Part shown: positions 8,467 to 45,521 of the stretch, piece by piece
Layout of the letters: the number at the start of each line of letters is the position of its first letter
Numbering within the stretch: position 1 is the first letter of the stretch
From: Crocinitomix sp.
GTDB lineage: Bacteria; Bacteroidota; Bacteroidia; Flavobacteriales_D; Crocinitomicaceae
Assembly: GCA_013138735.1 (NCBI GenBank)
Contig: WTCE01000150.1
Span: 1 to 46,760 of the forward strand
Length of the DNA stretch: 46,760 nucleotides
Direction: 5' to 3'
Notes under the pieces: generated by a model
What the model saw: the letters and a program-made list of their open reading frames with translations, nothing else
Told to the model about the DNA's origin: nothing
Databases searched by the model: none
Position numbers and translations under genes: made by a program

Positions 8467-9363
8467 TTAGAATAAATTTATTTTGAAGCTTCTTTCTGGT
8501 GAGTTTTTAGTGTTGGAAAAATTATATTGCAGTATAAATTCTTGACTACTTTGAGTCGCTGTTGTTAAAGGACTGTCATTGATTCCTGTTACAGCCTTGA
8601 TGCTAAATCTATCAAATTGATAGCCTACGAAAATTGTTGCAAATGAGCGGGGCAAATAGGAGCCTCCAAACGCAACACGTTTAGTATTAAAGGAAGCTTG
8701 GAATATGAGCTGTTGGAATCCATCTTGATAAGCGTATCGCAAAACAGGCGTGAAGGAAAGCTCCTTATTTTTAAACGGGGTCAAATTATACCCAACGGAA
8801 CCGGAAAAGGAGGTTACTCTGTCAACTTCACCTGAGAAGCTTTGATAAATCAAAGGGGAATAGACAGCACCCATGAAAAATTTTTCACCGTAGAGTAATC
8901 CTCCAATTGTATAATTCAATTGAGTCGTTGTGTGTATAGAATCAACTGAATTAGATACTCCAAAAAAATCATTCACGTTAAGTTCTAAATGTTCAAATTC
9001 AATCCGAGCGCCCAATGAAAGGCATAATTTTTCTGAGATATTTTGCTGAAAGCTATAATTTAGATTGAATCCTGTTTGGTAGTTTTGATATAGTAAAACT
9101 TTGCTGTGCATAATTTCAGCGCCAATACCACCATGCAAAACATCAATTCGCTGATCATAGGAAACATAATTTTGAACGAAATTTGACGTAAAACCAAGGT
9201 TCGTAATTGCAATACCATAATTCAATCGTGGATTCGCATTGGTCCCCGTGAATGCGGGGTTGTTTAGGATCGGAAGTGCGTTCAGTGATCTGAAAGACTC
9301 ATCTTGACTAAAACTGAATTGGACACTAATAAAGGTTAAAATAAGAATGGAATATTTGATCAT
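8467..9363 (-). CDS. PorP/SprF-family type IX secretion membrane protein
   Basis: A 298-residue outer-membrane protein of the PorP/SprF family. It has a signal peptide (1-19, FSFSQ) followed by the family's conserved opening: LNALPILNNPAFTGTNANPR, close to the usual 'NPAYAG' motif. The rest consists of alternating aromatic/Gly beta-strands (for example GGIGAEIMHSKVLLYQNY and LSFTPVLRYAYQDGFQQ), and it ends INLF in a strand, as barrels do. Members help the T9SS attach or release substrates and are often encoded beside a type B sorting-domain protein. Here no such substrate is adjacent; the nearest type B protein is about 30 kb away. It is 59 bp downstream of the lipid kinase gene. Confidence 0.85.
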   Translation of the reverse strand: MIKYSILILTFISVQFSFSQDESFRSLNALPILNNPAFTGTNANPRLNYGIAITNLGFTSNFVQNYVSYDQRIDVLHGGIGAEIMHSKVLLYQNYQTGFNLNYSFQQNISEKLCLSLGARIEFEHLELNVNDFFGVSNSVDSIHTTTQLNYTIGGLLYGEKFFMGAVYSPLIYQSFSGEVDRVTSFSGSVGYNLTPFKNKELSFTPVLRYAYQDGFQQLIFQASFNTKRVAFGGSYLPRSFATIFVGYQFDRFSIKAVTGINDSPLTTATQSSQEFILQYNFSNTKNSPERSFKINLF

Positions 9364-39059: not shown

Positions 39060-42000
39060 TTATTTTATTACTGTCACGTGACCTTGCGCTTTGTGACGTT
39101 TATCTGTCATAGTCTCGCTGAAGTCTAATGACCAAATGTAAACACCTGATTCAACTAGACCATTACCGCCATATGTTCCATCCCAGCCATAAAATGCGTC
39201 AAATGTTTCAAATACAGTTTCGCCCCATCTGTTGTAAATAACAAGGTGGAAATCATAAGGATCATATCCTGATCTGAATGAAGGTGCAAATGTTTCATTA
39301 AACGTATCTCCGTCAGGAGTGAATGTATTCGGAATATAGTAGATTATCACATCATTTACAGTAACAATTTTCTGCGTAAAGTCTGAACATAATCCGTTTT
39401 GACTAAAAGCCTCTAATGTTATCGTATATGATCTCGGTACTTCAGGATAAGTGTGAGTAGGGTCTGTTGTGTTTGACAATGGAGAACTATCGCCAAATGT
39501 CCAAGTATAAGCATACCCATTTTCAGAGGTATTGGTTAATACCACAGTTGGATCAAATGTGTCGATTACATTCGGAGCACAATCAAACGAAGCAACTGGA
39601 GTTGCAGTAACTGTAACATAATCCGCAACGCTCATGGTGTCTTTACATCCGTAATCATTGGTAACAATTAATTCAATATCATATAATTGATCCGTATAAG
39701 TTTCGCTAAAACAAATGCGTGGATTTTCTTCGAAGGCAACGTCACCACTCTCAAGAACCCAATACCAATTTGAGATGCCAGCTGTTGCTGAAACTGAAAG
39801 ACTTGTAAATTCAATACAATCAGGACTACAAACCGCCGTTACATCAGATGTAAAGTTGGCTGTTGGCTTTTCAAATACATTTACTGGAATTGTAATTACG
39901 TCTTCACATCCAAAATCAGAAGTGATTGTTAATGTTGCGTCATAAGTTCCAGCAGTAGTATAATTTTTAATTGGGTCGGCAACTGCTCCGCCAGAACCGT
40001 CTCCAAAATCCCATGACCAGTCAGTAATTGCTCCACCTGAAATGGTCGATAAATCGTTAAACATTGTTGGATCTCCATTAACACAAACATCAAGTGCTGA
40101 GAAATTTGCTTCTGGGTTAGGATAAATTGTGATTGGAATAGTGACTACACCTTCACAACCATTGTCTGAAGTAGCGGTTAAAGTCACATCAAATGTACCG
40201 TCTGCGCCATATTCATAGATTGGACCGGCTCCCACTCCTGTTCCGCCATCACCAAATTCCCAATCTAGTGTTGCTATAAGTTCAGGTGCTAAAATGGTTG
40301 ATAAATCAGTAAATGTAGCGTCGGTTCCAAAACAGACGTTATCGAAAGAAAAATCTGCAGTAGGAACATCAAAACGGTTGATTGTATACGTTACTGAGCT
40401 CGCACATCCTTCTGCCGAAACCACATCCAATGTTACATCATAAGGTCCTGGTGCACCGTAAGTATGTGTTGGATCTTCTGAAATATCTGCAGGTGTACCA
40501 TCACCAAAATCCCAACTAAAGTCCGTCAACACCGCTCCATCTGGAGAGGTTGAAAGGTTGGTAAAAGCTGCGTCAATATTAACACATCCATCATCAAAAG
40601 AAAAATCGGCAACGGGGGATGGGTTAATTGTTATTGCTGTAGTGATTGAGTCTGCACATCCATTGTCTGAGGTGGCAACTAGTTTAACATCATATGTTCC
40701 GAAAGTCGCATAAGTATAGGTTGGATCAGTCAGTGGGGAAGTTCCCGCATCACCAAAATCCCATGCCCATGTCACAATTGCACCAACTGGAATGGTCGTT
40801 GCATCAGTAAATGCCGTAAGGTCACCTTCGCAAAGGTCAGCGACAGTAAAGTCAACAACAGGAGCGTCAAATACTTCAATGTCTAATAAAAATACATCTT
40901 CACATCCTAAGTCATTTGTCACTGTTAATTCAACAGGGTAAACACCTGTTCCAGCAAAAGTGTGTGTTGGATTCTCGTCAGGAGATGTCCCACCATCACC
41001 GAAATCCCAAGCCCAAGTGTCTAAAACACCAGCAGCTGTAGTTGAAGCATCTGTAAAGTCAACTTCTCCATCAGGAAAGCAGCCAGGTGTTGCAGTAAAA
41101 TCGCCATCAACTATTGTAACATATTCGGGGCCAACACCAACGGCATACCATGCATTTGTTGTTTCTTTTTCCTCTACTGAACATTCGCCAAATAAATCAA
41201 TTGCAGACTGAATTGCAAAGAATCGCGCATCTGGATGATCTGATCCGTCGGTTAAATAAACGGTTAAATTTCTGAAGGCAATAGCGCTTGAAGATTCAAA
41301 TCCGAGTGCACCAACTGTATAGGCATCTCCGTTATCATTTGTTCCTGCTCCGCCACTCACTAATAAATAATACCAAAAATTTTGAACACCACTATTGGTG
41401 TGAACTCCACCATTGTCTCCTCCAACAAGAGAAGCCCAGTTCGTTCCAAAATACGTGTCGGGATGACCAAATAAATTCGGATTTTCTAAAGATCTGAATG
41501 AAGCACCAATATCAGCACTTAATAACCAATCCCAATCGCCAGGACGGGCAAAGTTTTCAATTGCTGTACCAAAAATGTCACTGAAAGATTCGTTCAATGC
41601 ACCCGATTCACCATAGTAAATTAGGTTGGCTGTTAAATTTGTTAATCCGTGTGTAATTTCGTGTCCAGCAATATCAAGCGATACAAGCGGCGTATAGGGC
41701 GCACCATTACCGTCACCATAAGTCATCCGTGTTCCGTCCCAAAAAGCGTTGACGTAATTCACACCATAATGCACATAACTGTTTAATTGAAATCCGGCAT
41801 CATCAATACTATTTCGTCCGTGAATATCGTTGAAATAATCGTAAGTTCTTTCTGTACCCCAGTGGGCATCACCAGCATATTCATCCTGTTGCGGATTTAC
41901 ATTGTTCCAGGTATTGTCAGCATCAAGAAAGTCAACAGCTCCTCCATAACCATAAGCTTGATTGAGGTCAAAGGTGCGAATACCCAGTCCGCGAGAACCA

Positions 42001-42806
42001 TCTCTTAAACGAAATTGTGCACCAAAACTATCGCCAATAATTGGGCGAGAACCACTATAAACAGTTTCTGCTGTTCCTGGTGTGTCTGCATGGTGGAGAA
42101 TTCCGTCTTCTGCAATTACTTCACCCGTAATGGCGTCAACATATACATTTGCGCGATAAAGTGGAGCTTGTGCATAAATATCAAATTTATAAGCTAAGCG
42201 AAAATTATCGGCTCCAAACTTAAAGTTGCGTGCCACAAAAACTAATTCGCCCGTAGGGAAATAAGTTGCTTCTGGATCATCAGATTCCCATTTTAAATGA
42301 GCTTCTTCAGCTGGAATATCCCATTTATACTCGTCTGCACCAACAAAGGCTTTTGCTTTTTCTAAAGCAGCATATTCCGAAAGGTTCGCATATGCAGAGG
42401 ATGTCATGTTTTTGAAAATCATCCCGTTCATTGAACGGACAACATTATCTTTTGCATGAGAAAGCCAAATAGCAGATTCGATAGGAATGCCTTTATAGGT
42501 TTGTCTCATTCGTGTATGCGAGAATCCTAAATGGTCATTCTCGGTGCGAATAACTTCAAAATCAATATCAGAATTGAGTTCTAGGTTTTCAGTCATCCAA
42601 GCTTTCAAATTTCCAGTCGGAATTCGATCTGATTCTTTCATTCGAATAAAAGAAGGTAAATCAGAGTGTTTGCTTTCACGGACAAGTTCTGCGCCAGCGT
42701 ATAATTGCTCGGCTGCTTGGTCGGTATAAACTTTTTGACCAAAACCACTGATAACGGTCATCATGGCGACCATCAAAAGGCTAAGTTGTGGAGTTAAGTA
42801 TTTCAT
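39060..42806 (-). CDS. Secreted M4 metallopeptidase, copy 4 (multiple PKD, T9SS type B)
   Basis: A 1248-residue paralog whose catalytic half matches the others but whose tail is different. Signal peptide about 1-23, propeptide about 45-230, M4 domain about 235-562 with HEITH (382-386), E406 and H469 in GGDNGGVHTNSG. Residues 565-1150 hold about seven PKD-type domains (WDFGDG-like motifs near 600, 682, 765, 850, 932 and 1102, and one degenerate at about 1015, YWVLESGD). The C-terminus (1156-1248) is a type B 'gliding motility-associated' sorting domain: IPNTFTPDGDTFNETF, then YNRWGETVFE and GVYIWSL. No CUB and no 76-residue unit are present. It is the most upstream gene in the array and the most diverged in propeptide sequence (MRQTYKGIPIESAIWLSHA). 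It may be released or attached at the surface by a different route from copies 1-3. Confidence 0.93.
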   Translation of the reverse strand: MKYLTPQLSLLMVAMMTVISGFGQKVYTDQAAEQLYAGAELVRESKHSDLPSFIRMKESDRIPTGNLKAWMTENLELNSDIDFEVIRTENDHLGFSHTRMRQTYKGIPIESAIWLSHAKDNVVRSMNGMIFKNMTSSAYANLSEYAALEKAKAFVGADEYKWDIPAEEAHLKWESDDPEATYFPTGELVFVARNFKFGADNFRLAYKFDIYAQAPLYRANVYVDAITGEVIAEDGILHHADTPGTAETVYSGSRPIIGDSFGAQFRLRDGSRGLGIRTFDLNQAYGYGGAVDFLDADNTWNNVNPQQDEYAGDAHWGTERTYDYFNDIHGRNSIDDAGFQLNSYVHYGVNYVNAFWDGTRMTYGDGNGAPYTPLVSLDIAGHEITHGLTNLTANLIYYGESGALNESFSDIFGTAIENFARPGDWDWLLSADIGASFRSLENPNLFGHPDTYFGTNWASLVGGDNGGVHTNSGVQNFWYYLLVSGGAGTNDNGDAYTVGALGFESSSAIAFRNLTVYLTDGSDHPDARFFAIQSAIDLFGECSVEEKETTNAWYAVGVGPEYVTIVDGDFTATPGCFPDGEVDFTDASTTAAGVLDTWAWDFGDGGTSPDENPTHTFAGTGVYPVELTVTNDLGCEDVFLLDIEVFDAPVVDFTVADLCEGDLTAFTDATTIPVGAIVTWAWDFGDAGTSPLTDPTYTYATFGTYDVKLVATSDNGCADSITTAITINPSPVADFSFDDGCVNIDAAFTNLSTSPDGAVLTDFSWDFGDGTPADISEDPTHTYGAPGPYDVTLDVVSAEGCASSVTYTINRFDVPTADFSFDNVCFGTDATFTDLSTILAPELIATLDWEFGDGGTGVGAGPIYEYGADGTFDVTLTATSDNGCEGVVTIPITIYPNPEANFSALDVCVNGDPTMFNDLSTISGGAITDWSWDFGDGSGGAVADPIKNYTTAGTYDATLTITSDFGCEDVITIPVNVFEKPTANFTSDVTAVCSPDCIEFTSLSVSATAGISNWYWVLESGDVAFEENPRICFSETYTDQLYDIELIVTNDYGCKDTMSVADYVTVTATPVASFDCAPNVIDTFDPTVVLTNTSENGYAYTWTFGDSSPLSNTTDPTHTYPEVPRSYTITLEAFSQNGLCSDFTQKIVTVNDVIIYYIPNTFTPDGDTFNETFAPSFRSGYDPYDFHLVIYNRWGETVFETFDAFYGWDGTYGGNGLVESGVYIWSLDFSETMTDKRHKAQGHVTVIK

Positions 42807-42962: not shown

Positions 42963-43346
42963 TTAGTCGAATTCTAGGACTTCAACTAGCTCAAAATTAA
43001 GCCCATGGAATAGAAGTCTAAACTCGTCACCGGCCTCTTTCATGTCCTCGTCGTATTCTTCATAATACCATTTGACATGCAATTCTGTTTTAGAGTCAGT
43101 TTGGCTCAGGTCTCGAATCAGGTTTCGAATAACAAGTGTTGAACTTGTATTAAAATATTCCAATTTAAATTCAAGAATTGTTTTTGCTTGAGGTGATTCC
43201 ATGTATTTCTCGATCTCTTCATTCACGGGTGAATAAAAAGCGTACGGATCTTCCGGGATGGAAATCCCTGCAAGAAGGATGATTCCTTCTTCAAAGTTAA
43301 CCAGCACTCTTGGTGTTTTTAGTGTTGCTTTGATTTCTAATGACAT
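42963..43346 (-). CDS. SiaC-family (DUF1987) regulatory protein
   Basis: A 127-residue protein of the SiaC/DUF1987 family. The pattern includes TPRVLVNFEEGIILLAGISIPEDPYAFYSPV near the N-terminus and LEYFNTSSTLVIRNLIRDL in the middle, where 'FNTSS' holds the Ser/Thr phosphorylated in Pseudomonas SiaC. In that system a kinase (SiaB) and phosphatase (SiaA) switch SiaC, which then controls a diguanylate cyclase. No siaA, siaB or cyclase gene is in the window, so its partners here are unknown. It is separated from the sigma-factor operon by a terminator and a 167-bp spacer and is 156 bp upstream of M4 copy 4 on the same strand. Confidence 0.85.
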   Translation of the reverse strand: MSLEIKATLKTPRVLVNFEEGIILLAGISIPEDPYAFYSPVNEEIEKYMESPQAKTILEFKLEYFNTSSTLVIRNLIRDLSQTDSKTELHVKWYYEEYDEDMKEAGDEFRLLFHGLNFELVEVLEFD

Positions 43347-43453: not shown

Positions 43454-43491
43454 AAAAAAGCGACGTGGGGTTTCATCCAAGTCGCTTTTTT
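43454..43491 (-). terminator. Terminator of the ECF sigma operon
   Basis: Arms AAAAAAGCGAC (43454-43464) and GTCGCTTTTTT (43481-43491) enclose a 16-base loop, 22 bp past the stop of the sorting-domain protein. The stem core matches that of the terminator at 27533-27562. Confidence 0.88.
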
Positions 43492-43513: not shown

Positions 43514-44905
43514 CTATCGGATCATTATTAATTGTCCTTTATATTCTTCAATTTGACCGTTGCCGTTTTTTAACATTACACGCCAAATGTATGAACCGCC
43601 TGGTGCTACAGTATTGTCTGCTGCGCGTCCATCCCAAGGTTCGCTTGCACTTTGTGTCGTGTAAACTAAATTACCTGGTTGGTCATAAATCATCATAGTA
43701 AATTCTTTATCCATTAGTAATAGTGCTTTAGGAATAAAAGTCTCATTACTTCCATCACCATTCGGAGTGAATGCGTTTGGTGCAAATAAGTCATAATCAG
43801 AGTCCACGGTTATTTGCTCTTGCATTTGATTTTCACAACCATCATTATTAGTTGCAGAAAGTTCGACCGTATAAATTCCTTTATCTCTAAATGTATATTC
43901 AAATTCATTTTTGTCAGAAATCATTCGTCCATTTACTTTCCAAGCCCAGTCTTGACCTTCTTCAGTAAGGTTTATGAAATCAACCGTTGGAATTATTGCA
44001 TTGTCTTTTTCCCAAGAGAATTCAATATTCGGTAATCCGTTAATTGTAACTGATTCTTTTGATGTAGCCAATACTTTGTTTGTGCTTTTATCGCGGACAG
44101 TTAATATTACATTATAATTTCCAGCTGTTTCAAATAAGTGACTTGCTGAAGATTCAGAACTATATGCTCCATCCCCAAAATCCCATACATAAATGGCATT
44201 TCCTTTCACCACTTTAGGGTTGAATATGATTTTCTCACCAGCACATACTTCATCTTCACTTACTGAAAAATCAGCAGAGTATTTTAATTCAACAACATCC
44301 ACAGGATCATTATCCTCAGGAGTTTCAATCGTAGTTACGACCGCAATGCCGTCACCTTGATTATTGTTATTGTCTGGTTGGTCAACACTATCGTCTGATT
44401 CTTGCGTATTTCCATTATCGTTTACTAATGGGTTTGAAAGATCCGTATTATTTTCAGCGATATTAAGGTTTTCGTCAGTTGTATTGTTGTTTGCAATTTC
44501 GTTTTCTACTAAAGGAGTAGTTTCGTTCGTTGTTATTTTATCTACAGTTGTTTTATTATCATTTAAAACAATTGCTGAATTTGTGTCAATTTTAGATGCC
44601 GTTGGACGCTCAACAGGTGTTGAATCGTCAGATGGGATAAATGCAATAGCTCCTACTACTAAAGTAACAGCAGCGGCAGAACCGGCTATCCATTGGAATA
44701 ATGTAGAAGAAGAACCGATCTGATTTTTAATTGCAGACCATGCACTTGGGTTGTAAGGAGCTTCATGCCCTTTTACAGATTCCCTAAAAGCGTCCTCCAT
44801 AGGACTAAGTTGTGAGCTAATGTTATCCCAGATGCTTGCATCATAAGGAGCTTCATAACCCTCAACCGCTTCTTTTAATATTTTATCGATATTACTCATT
44901 TTCAT
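43514..44905 (-). CDS. One-pass membrane protein: anti-sigma-like N-terminus, PKD domains, T9SS type B sorting domain
   Basis: A 463-residue protein encoded directly after an ECF sigma factor, with a 14-bp overlap. Residues 1-66 are probably cytoplasmic and contain two copies of one short unit: EAVEGYEAPYDASIWDNI (12-29) and ESVKGHEAPYNPSAWSAI (42-59). A single membrane helix follows (about 70-90). Residues 100-205 are a low-complexity Asn/Thr/Asp linker. Residues 210-290 form a PKD domain (VWDFGDGAYSS) and 291-368 a second, degenerate one. Residues 372-463 are a type B sorting domain (FAPNAFTPNGDGSNETF, then YDQPGNLVY and YIWRV). Position and topology suggest an anti-sigma factor or membrane sensor. 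The sorting domain is odd on a protein held by an uncleaved membrane helix. The start could also be the ATG at 44899 (MSNIDK). Confidence 0.85.
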   Translation of the reverse strand: MKMSNIDKILKEAVEGYEAPYDASIWDNISSQLSPMEDAFRESVKGHEAPYNPSAWSAIKNQIGSSSTLFQWIAGSAAAVTLVVGAIAFIPSDDSTPVERPTASKIDTNSAIVLNDNKTTVDKITTNETTPLVENEIANNNTTDENLNIAENNTDLSNPLVNDNGNTQESDDSVDQPDNNNNQGDGIAVVTTIETPEDNDPVDVVELKYSADFSVSEDEVCAGEKIIFNPKVVKGNAIYVWDFGDGAYSSESSASHLFETAGNYNVILTVRDKSTNKVLATSKESVTINGLPNIEFSWEKDNAIIPTVDFINLTEEGQDWAWKVNGRMISDKNEFEYTFRDKGIYTVELSATNNDGCENQMQEQITVDSDYDLFAPNAFTPNGDGSNETFIPKALLLMDKEFTMMIYDQPGNLVYTTQSASEPWDGRAADNTVAPGGSYIWRVMLKNGNGQIEEYKGQLIMIR

Positions 44906-45521
44906 TTAAGTTTGCGAACTTCACAGTGAGTTGTGCTCGCAGTTTTTGTTTTGCCTTTGCTAGGTTTGATTTTGAAGTACCTTCACTAATTCCTAAATAA
45001 TCAGCAATTTCTTTGTGTGTAAATCCTTCAATAACGTACATGTTAAACACCATTTTATAAGCTGGAGACAATTCGCTAATTGCTTTAATTGCTGTTTCTG
45101 CCTTCAACTTTGAATAAAATTCGTCTTCTTCTGTCGAGAAAGGAACATCCTCCTCAACGTTTTGAACACGACTCTCATCTTCCATCAAAAAAGGATTACG
45201 TTTGTTTTTCCTAATTTGATCAATGGCAGTGTTAACCATTATACGTCTAATCCAACCTTCCAAAGAACCTTCAAAATTGTAAACATCAAGTTTTTTAAAT
45301 ACTTTAATAAAACCATTCTGAACCATGTCTTGTGCTTCGTCTGAGTCTTTGGCATAACGATAGCATATTGCCATCATCTTCCCGTAATATTTCTCAAAAA
45401 GTTTTTTTTGAAACTTACGTTTGCCGCGGATACATCCGTCAACTATTTCTTTTAGTTCTTCTTTGTTTTCCACTTTGCTTACTCTTTTAAAACGATACCT
45501 TTTGCGGAGGGTTGCCACCAA
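44892..45521 (-). CDS. ECF-type RNA polymerase sigma factor
   Basis: A 209-residue sigma-70 family extracytoplasmic-function factor. Region 2 shows FEKYYGKMMAICYRYAKDSD and EAQDMVQNGFIKVFKKLDVY, then EGWIRRIMVNTAIDQIRKNKR for -10 recognition. Region 4 (about 145-200) has LSPAYKMVFNMYVIEGFTHKEIADYLGISE and KSNLAKAKQKLR, the helix-turn-helix. The first 18 residues are basic, and a GTG further in (VSKVENKEEL) is an alternative start. It is divergent from mdh across a 132-bp spacer. The overlapping downstream gene encodes a membrane protein with a sensor-like plan, as in many ECF/anti-sigma pairs. Its regulon is not visible here; the promoters in the window are of the housekeeping type. Confidence 0.95.
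   Translation of the reverse strand: MVATLRKRYRFKRVSKVENKEELKEIVDGCIRGKRKFQKKLFEKYYGKMMAICYRYAKDSDEAQDMVQNGFIKVFKKLDVYNFEGSLEGWIRRIMVNTAIDQIRKNKRNPFLMEDESRVQNVEEDVPFSTEEDEFYSKLKAETAIKAISELSPAYKMVFNMYVIEGFTHKEIADYLGISEGTSKSNLAKAKQKLRAQLTVKFANLNENE

Follow-up and report, generated by a model that had tools for sequence, protein, structure and literature searches.

The window, as the whole 46,760-nucleotide stretch of Crocinitomix sp. DNA analyzed here is called, encodes on its reverse strand an ECF sigma factor followed by an overlapping gene for a candidate anti-sigma factor that ends in a type IX secretion system (T9SS) type B sorting domain. The sigma protein has regions 2 and 4, both over the Pfam cut-off, and nothing else, as is characteristic of ECF factors. 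An initial annotation had described the two open reading frames (ORFs), their 14 bp overlap, and the order of domains in the second product, and all of these were confirmed by ORF and Pfam/TIGR scans. Its extent for the sigma gene was borne out only as an ORF: the mechanical call (44892-45521, minus strand, 209 aa from TTG 45521) stands, but the TTG is the less likely start. Because a conserved promoter motif sits within this longer frame, upstream of codon 17, translation very probably begins at GTG 45473, the start that aligns with the sigma genes of relatives, leaving the first 16 codons of the ORF untranslated. The motif, GGCAACC-N15-CGTTT, has its sole match in the window at this position, and the sigma gene is predicted to be autoregulated through it. 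Since Met-3 of the anti-sigma candidate is nearly invariant in a 29-sequence alignment, the gene may start at the alternative position given below, in which case the overlap would be 8 bp instead of 14 bp.

An inverted repeat 3' of the pair was read directly; it is absent from the list of the terminator scan, whose limit on loop size is smaller than the loop of this repeat. The siaC and M4 peptidase genes that follow are both kept downstream of the pair in seven other loci (L035, L036, L037, L039, L043, L045, L048). A porP/sprF gene directly downstream of a type B substrate gene is common, although not universal. No cognate porP/sprF lies directly downstream of the anti-sigma gene in the window, where siaC and the M4 peptidase gene are found instead.

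Table 1. Coordinates of the sigma/anti-sigma pair, its parts, and other genes of interest in the window.
Feature	Position	Strand	Remarks
PorP/SprF gene	8467-9363		one of the genome's 22; far from the pair, without motif upstream
M4 peptidase gene	39060-42806		PKD repeats and type B domain; after the pair and siaC
siaC gene	42963-43346		after the sigma/anti-sigma pair
Possible terminator	43454..43491	.	11-bp inverted repeat and T/A run, 3' of the anti-sigma gene; strand not assigned
Anti-sigma candidate gene	43514..44905	-	463 aa; possible alternative start 44899
T9SS type B sorting domain	43517..43783	-	residues 375-463; CHU_C and TIGR04131
Two PKD-type domains	43805..44269	-	residues about 213-367; Pfam, alignment, AlphaFold
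Disordered Asn-rich tether	44270..44632	-	residues 92-212; pLDDT < 50 for 63-204
Single hydrophobic helix	44636..44692	-	residues 72-90; probably N-in, judged by charge
N-terminal unit 2	44714..44800	-	residues 36-64; Trp at 56
N-terminal unit 1	44804..44896	-	residues 4-34; Trp at 26
ECF sigma factor gene	44892..45473	-	GTG start, 193 aa (revised)
ECF-type promoter motif of the sigma gene	45490..45516	-	GGCAACC-N15-CGTTT; present upstream in 29 of 30 loci

The anti-sigma candidate begins with two units of about 30 residues, and such units, with the consensus FE..K..LE..E.PYD...W......L, occur across 67 partners as one copy in 51, two in 12, and three to five in 4. AlphaFold, given the 29-sequence alignment, models the units as four low-confidence helices (pLDDT about 50) that are compatible with two helix-turn-helix-like units, places residues 63-204 below pLDDT 50, and builds residues 213-463 as mostly confident beta domains. 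Foldseek returned generic Ig-like matches to this model, the best (E = 3e-9) being a fragment of an Aureispira surface protein. PKD_4 matched two stretches; Cys221 and Cys357 in the PKD pair (43805-44269) are invariant in the alignment and could form a disulfide. The C-terminus scored 54.6 bits with CHU_C (cut-off 27) and 42.3 bits with TIGR04131 (cut-off 35), the domains that mark T9SS type B substrates. TIGR04131 matched 24 of the 29 anti-sigma sequences (E <= 1e-3), and an NGDG-like motif is present in 38 of the 67 partners, 11 of which are without any C-terminal sorting domain (CTD). CTDs have diverged in some members of the family, and a functional export signal has therefore not been retained by every partner.

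The N-terminal Sec signal peptide expected of type B substrates was not found in the window protein by hydropathy and alignment, which, rather than a trained predictor, were the basis of this judgement. Across the 67 partners, the first residue of the hydrophobic helix ranges from 39 to 181 (median 50), and charge is more positive before it than after it in 61. The helix thus placed looks like an uncleaved anchor and not a signal peptide, as the initial annotation had proposed; a cleaved signal peptide was considered and set aside on account of the position of the helix, the conserved 71-residue N-terminus, and the charge pattern.

Conservation of the pair and predicted targets of the sigma factor

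A search of 59 relatives placed the sigma gene immediately upstream of the partner in 30 of the 30 top loci, which are from the order, and this recurrence indicates that their adjacency is not a matter of chance. A divergent mdh gene lies beyond the sigma gene in 26 of these loci, within the stretch read. The sigma profile was also searched in 119 genomes of the class, and among the best 30 loci, 3 of which are from the window's own order, the sigma gene was again beside a partner in all 30, including families outside the order. The survey of relatives that the initial annotation had suggested thus recovered the pair in the order and in families beyond it, and the proposed union of a sigma factor and a membrane partner appears, from these comparisons, to be an old and conserved unit. 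Named carriers (45 loci) are mostly Crocinitomix, Crocinitomicaceae, and other Flavobacteriales, and include Crocinitomix catalasitica ATCC 23190 (locus L105). In a plasmid collection, 11 records matched and none covered 80% of the query. SprA is present in 58 of the 59 relatives and is therefore useless as a discriminator.

The pair was also detected in 13 genomes first classed as negatives. At all 13 of these loci, the gene next to the sigma gene encodes an N-terminal unit, one helix, and a linker, and a cargo-CTD model, built from 15 C-termini of predicted targets, matched the C-terminus of 10 of the 13 partners (L277 was masked; L286 and L288 were missed). In a tree of sigma factors from which rows L326 and L338 were left out, the window's sigma falls in a clade of 68 rows with moderate support (86/94). 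Since branching at the base of this clade is not resolved, the tree does not polarize the changes in partner head type described below.

The promoter motif was found upstream of the sigma gene in 29 of the 30 loci of the order. Of 28 resolved class loci, 19 have its strict form, 6 a looser form, and 3 none. Nine genomes of the genus gave 37 matches (9 of them sigma promoters) versus 28 for a reversed control, and a second motif scan gave 80 versus 44. Because so short a motif is only mildly above its reversed control, these counts say little and single targets are unsure. The placement of the matches is more informative: 93 of 113 lie between genes versus 4 of 27 for a control pattern of the same base composition (p = 6e-11). 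Among the matches listed, the genus contributed 28 of the 113 places, further genomes that carry the pair 45, and supposed negatives their first 40, with recognized promoters of already known pairs excluded; the 27 are those read of the 34 genus matches of the control pattern, in eight genomes. Supposed pair-negative genomes were tried as a control and rejected, as 13 of the 40 matches in them precede the same type of sigma factor with the same kind of partner, and these 13 loci were counted as positives. It should be noted that the categories "between genes", "downstream gene", and "hydrophobic N-terminus" were assigned by heuristic rules in a script and not by trained predictors.

The predicted targets are the 61 non-sigma genes whose start lies no more than 150 bp from a between-gene match. 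A hydrophobic N-terminus is present in 51 of these versus 40 of 93 background genes (p = 4e-7). At E <= 1e-3, the targets include 14 type B proteins (TIGR04131), 4 type A proteins (TIGR04183), one GldM, and one PorP/SprF. Genomes of the genus carry 33-78 TIGR04131 genes each, or roughly 1-2% of genes (gene number estimated), and a local model identified a type B domain in 2 of 93 genes of control regions; the proportion of 14 in 61 gives p of about 5e-14 against a background of 1.3% and about 3e-9 against 3%. The predicted targets thus appear to be rich in T9SS cargo. By eye, several were judged to recur across species, namely in L162 and L171 (a PKD protein), L166 and L170 (a protein with GEVED and type B domains), and L161 and L175 (a 115-residue exported protein). 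In addition, of the 32 named loci that extend 2.5 kb or more beyond the partner, 10 have a gene matching the cargo-CTD model no farther than 900 bp after it.

Of the 80 matches in the second scan, 30 were read; 20 are between genes and 17 of these have a nearby gene, 4 counted as sigma genes and 13 as others, 9 of the latter with a hydrophobic N-terminus, in a tally whose rules misplace three loci (the sigma gene of L374 is among the 13 others, that of L375 is counted as inside a frame, and the porP gene of L362 is placed within a frame of 122 codons at the end of a contig).

Other motif placements were also kept between genomes. In two species of the genus, G000 and G003, the motif lies upstream of a phosphoesterase-like gene and a lipoprotein-like gene of about 60 residues, both identified by eye (L146, L177, and L201; L157 and L168). 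Likewise, it is upstream of a cytosolic-looking protein of about 175 residues in three genomes (L232, L234, L236) and of a DUF5684-like protein in two (L287, L290), both paired between genomes by eye.

The window's own genome has only four matches not associated with sigma genes: one precedes a gene for a 1166-residue exported protein, one a lipoprotein-like gene of 60 residues, one a phosphoesterase-like gene at a distance of 177 bp, and one has no clear gene after it. None of the 22 PorP/SprF genes of this genome has the motif in front of it, and one motif look-alike lies inside a porP gene. The direct link of the sigma factor to type B export is weakest in the window's own genome.

Partner heads in other lineages

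Partners at the 27 class loci outside the order differ in what they carry at the far end. Sixteen have a type B-like head, 3 a fused PorP/SprF domain, and 8 are short and without a domain. In the fused group, PF11751 is over the cut-off in each of three genomes, all of one family, and the partners have four or five N-terminal units. Each is followed at once by a lipoprotein-like gene of about 215 residues (gap listed as -1, -4, and -1), the C-terminus of which matches the cargo-CTD model (E = 2.7e-11, 1.2e-12, and 1.3e-9).

The short partners (209-274 residues, 8 loci) carry a peptide such as TFGDMIDPKKGFIKKTNEDP, a copy of an internal PorP stretch of the same genome, for example TFGDMIDARRGFVFNTAETP. 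Copy and PorP share 9-13 of 20 residues in 7 of 7 pairs (L340 was excluded since its PorP is cut off before the loop), with BLOSUM scores of 48-67 versus 17-29 for the next unrelated stretch; the same score reached at most 38 for 29 CTD-type partners. A model of PorP shows a 14-strand barrel, with the copied stretch in the long loop that joins strands 5 and 6. The best structure matches of this model were FadL and chains of the T9SS translocon complexes 8gl6 and 6h3i, which we take to be PorV.

A PorP/SprF gene follows the short partner in 6 of the 8 loci (6 of 6 scanned), and all 6 of these adjoining genes have the motif or a near variant upstream. The other two genomes have an unlinked PorP/SprF gene with the motif 27 and 146 bp before the ORF. 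With a ninth short partner (L412) that has no adjoining porP gene, a porP gene under the motif was seen in 8 of 9 short-partner genomes. Within the sigma tree, the fused group forms one clade (two rows, the third being left out; support 100/100), as does the short group (eight rows; support 99/99), and both fall inside the 68-row clade of the window's sigma.

According to the available parts of two reports, type B CTDs bind PorP/SprF and require it for export (PMC9143113, PMC12618676). Partners in other lineages carry the receiver side of the type B interface, either whole or as a peptide. Because the changes of head stay on one interface, the far end of the anti-sigma factor is likely to work at the contact between type B cargo and PorP.

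Candidate mechanism and alternative readings

The reading that is judged probable is that the ECF sigma factor is autoregulated and that its partner is a trans-envelope anti-sigma factor resembling Dma, which monitors the export of type B proteins by the type IX system. It is favored since the swaps of head are hard to explain otherwise. The N-terminal unit or units would bind the sigma factor and hold it at the inner membrane, the single helix would anchor the protein, and the disordered tether would span the periplasm. At the far end, the protein would present one of the two partners in the contact of type B cargo with the PorP/SprF shuttle: the window's lineage has the cargo tag there, and other lineages have all or part of the shuttle. 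Engagement of the head by a free partner, or pulling by the translocon, could then cause a change that is passed down the tether and, in the direction assumed here, releases the sigma factor. Free sigma would transcribe its own operon, cargo genes, and, in some lineages, PorP shuttles; the loop would shut off because new product competes with the head for its partner. In this way, the cell may read how busy the outer-membrane export machine is before making more cargo.

A more specific version, put forward tentatively and with the balance of judgement somewhat against it, is that each head mimics the product of its sigma factor and competes with it for a shared partner, such that unmatched export partners are what is measured. 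Where the head is a cargo tag, the predicted targets are rich in cargo, and where it is a PorP copy, they include porP. If true, the regulator would meter the type IX system with the system's own sorting signal and would have switched between the two sides of one protein interface during evolution.

Three other explanations were weighed against a sensor of type B export. The PKD-CTD part could be a mere ectodomain (a sensor of ligands or envelope stress, or an anchor) of a Dma-like anti-sigma factor that controls exported proteins and does not read the T9SS. Other ECF partners of the same genome do end in barrel-like or other ectodomains, and the divergence of CTDs in part of the family also fits; but the alternative heads are PorP/SprF or a copy of PorP, the known receiver of type B CTDs in the available part of PMC12618676, and this explanation is considered unlikely, if still the most credible of the three. 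An alarm for jammed secretion has about half that credibility. Here, blocked export would free or expose the head, a protease would cut the tether, and the sigma factor would be released, which is the opposite sign. RseA provides a precedent for regulated proteolysis of single-pass anti-sigma anchors, to which a single-pass anchor with a long tether is suited, and gldM and a PorP/SprF gene are among the predicted targets. Yet most of the predicted targets are exported proteins that would worsen a jam, and among the first 25 of 32 families, quality control is represented by no more than two single-member families, a ClpS adaptor and a thioredoxin-like protein.

It is very improbable that the protein is a plain secreted type B substrate with an odd signal sequence and a sigma factor as a neighbor by coincidence. 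The TIGR04131 score over the cut-off would suit such a substrate, but the helix lies behind a Trp-containing unit in the 67 partners, and a sigma gene adjoins the partner at every locus read in the order, ex-negative, and class sets. The sensing role that the initial annotation gave to the sorting domain is retained as the leading reading, on the strength of the conserved pair, the anchor-like helix, the cargo-rich predicted targets, and the receptor-side heads elsewhere, while secretion stress as its sign has become less favored because the predicted targets are mainly exported proteins.

Relation to known systems and to other ECF partners

FlgM, which inhibits sigma-28, is an anti-sigma factor that is itself exported by the flagellar type III system and so gates the genes for late cargo. 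The likeness is of logic alone, an anti-sigma factor as client of an exporter, and no homology is claimed; FlgM is a small, soluble protein that is released from the cell. In layout, the closest relatives are the Dma proteins of Bacteroidota, which in the available part of their description share with the window protein a single transmembrane helix, a long disordered tether, an adjoining ECF sigma gene (Dma3 excepted), an N-terminal sigma-binding part, and a C-terminal part at the outer membrane, the last two being predictions only in the window protein. The Dma C-terminus is a beta-barrel, whereas the window protein has two PKD domains and CHU_C/TIGR04131 (PMC13088901); some related sigma factors have partners with a barrel-like or fused PorP/SprF head. 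Several N-terminal units and predicted targets rich in T9SS proteins are features of the present family that do not appear in the available account of Dma (PMC13088901), the main text of which has no mention of "T9SS" or "type IX". Because the barrel is absent, the window protein is not classified as Dma and is described as Dma-like by layout, set beside the published description.

Other systems share parts of the proposed circuit, as judged from the portions of the sources that were available. The F. psychrophilum pair THC0290_1774/1773 is comparable in its promoter, as SM6 promoters have a CGT -10 box, and in its target list, which includes gldN, porU, and the sigma/anti-sigma operon; its anti-sigma factor is not described there (PMC9723704). 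In the PorXY-SigP/PorA pathway of P. gingivalis, T9SS genes are controlled by an ECF sigma factor that has a CTD protein, PorA, upstream of it, but PorA is a surface protein described from Porphyromonas alone that acts on a two-component system, with no tethered anti-sigma factor (PMC7712824). SprB-SprF and PG1035-PorP involve the same two partner domains as proposed here, with the difference that their CTD is on exported cargo and here it is on a candidate regulator anchored in the inner membrane (PMC9143113, PMC12618676).

The initial annotation had called such a switch not yet described. For the combination, this holds within the open-licence literature, in which no anti-sigma factor with a T9SS sorting domain, shuttle fusion, or copied shuttle stretch was found and outside which most subscription journals lie. 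It does not hold for the parts, as the trans-envelope layout is in print for Dma, and T9SS genes are under ECF control in P. gingivalis (PMC7712824) and are proposed to be so in F. psychrophilum (PMC9723704). The pair bears on how the supply of T9SS cargo and shuttle is matched to export capacity in Bacteroidota, and a study of F. johnsoniae shuttles argues for stoichiometric production of type B cargo and shuttle (PMC12618676). If the proposal is true, the sensor end, be it a cargo tag, a whole shuttle, or a copied part of one, would answer this question directly and in a testable way, and a promoter motif, candidate targets, and Crocinitomix catalasitica ATCC 23190 as a cultured host are at hand.

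Several other ECF partners of the window genome end in barrel-like or other ectodomains, most assigned by eye; over the Pfam cut-off are a barrel in L091 and PorP/SprF in L071. Eight other ECF genes of this genome, whose partners are related or carry a CTD or barrel, showed no GGCAACC motif in their promoters, with a look-alike at L064. The model of the N-terminal unit gave weak matches to the partners in L072 (1e-4), L091 (8e-3), and L065 (0.013). The partner in L071 (1099-2811, G000:C79; also L385) combines a PorP/SprF domain (9e-30) with a helix at 76, is followed by a separate PorP gene with a GDQIDPRRGF stretch, and has a sigma gene without the GGCAACC promoter. A second anti-sigma candidate of the window genome (L072:1943-3061, G000:C185) consists of a helix, linker, PKD, and type B domain (TIGR04131, 37.4 bits). 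A 975-residue partner (L100:875-3799, G000:C155) has a cytochrome c segment and a C-terminal CHU_C, and another (L065:1232-3268, G000:C28) has one helix and a vWF_A/YfbK ectodomain. The partner in L064 (2047-3888, G000:C26), whose upstream region holds the motif look-alike, shows several N-terminal units by eye, and its end is barrel-like, with PF13505 below the cut-off.
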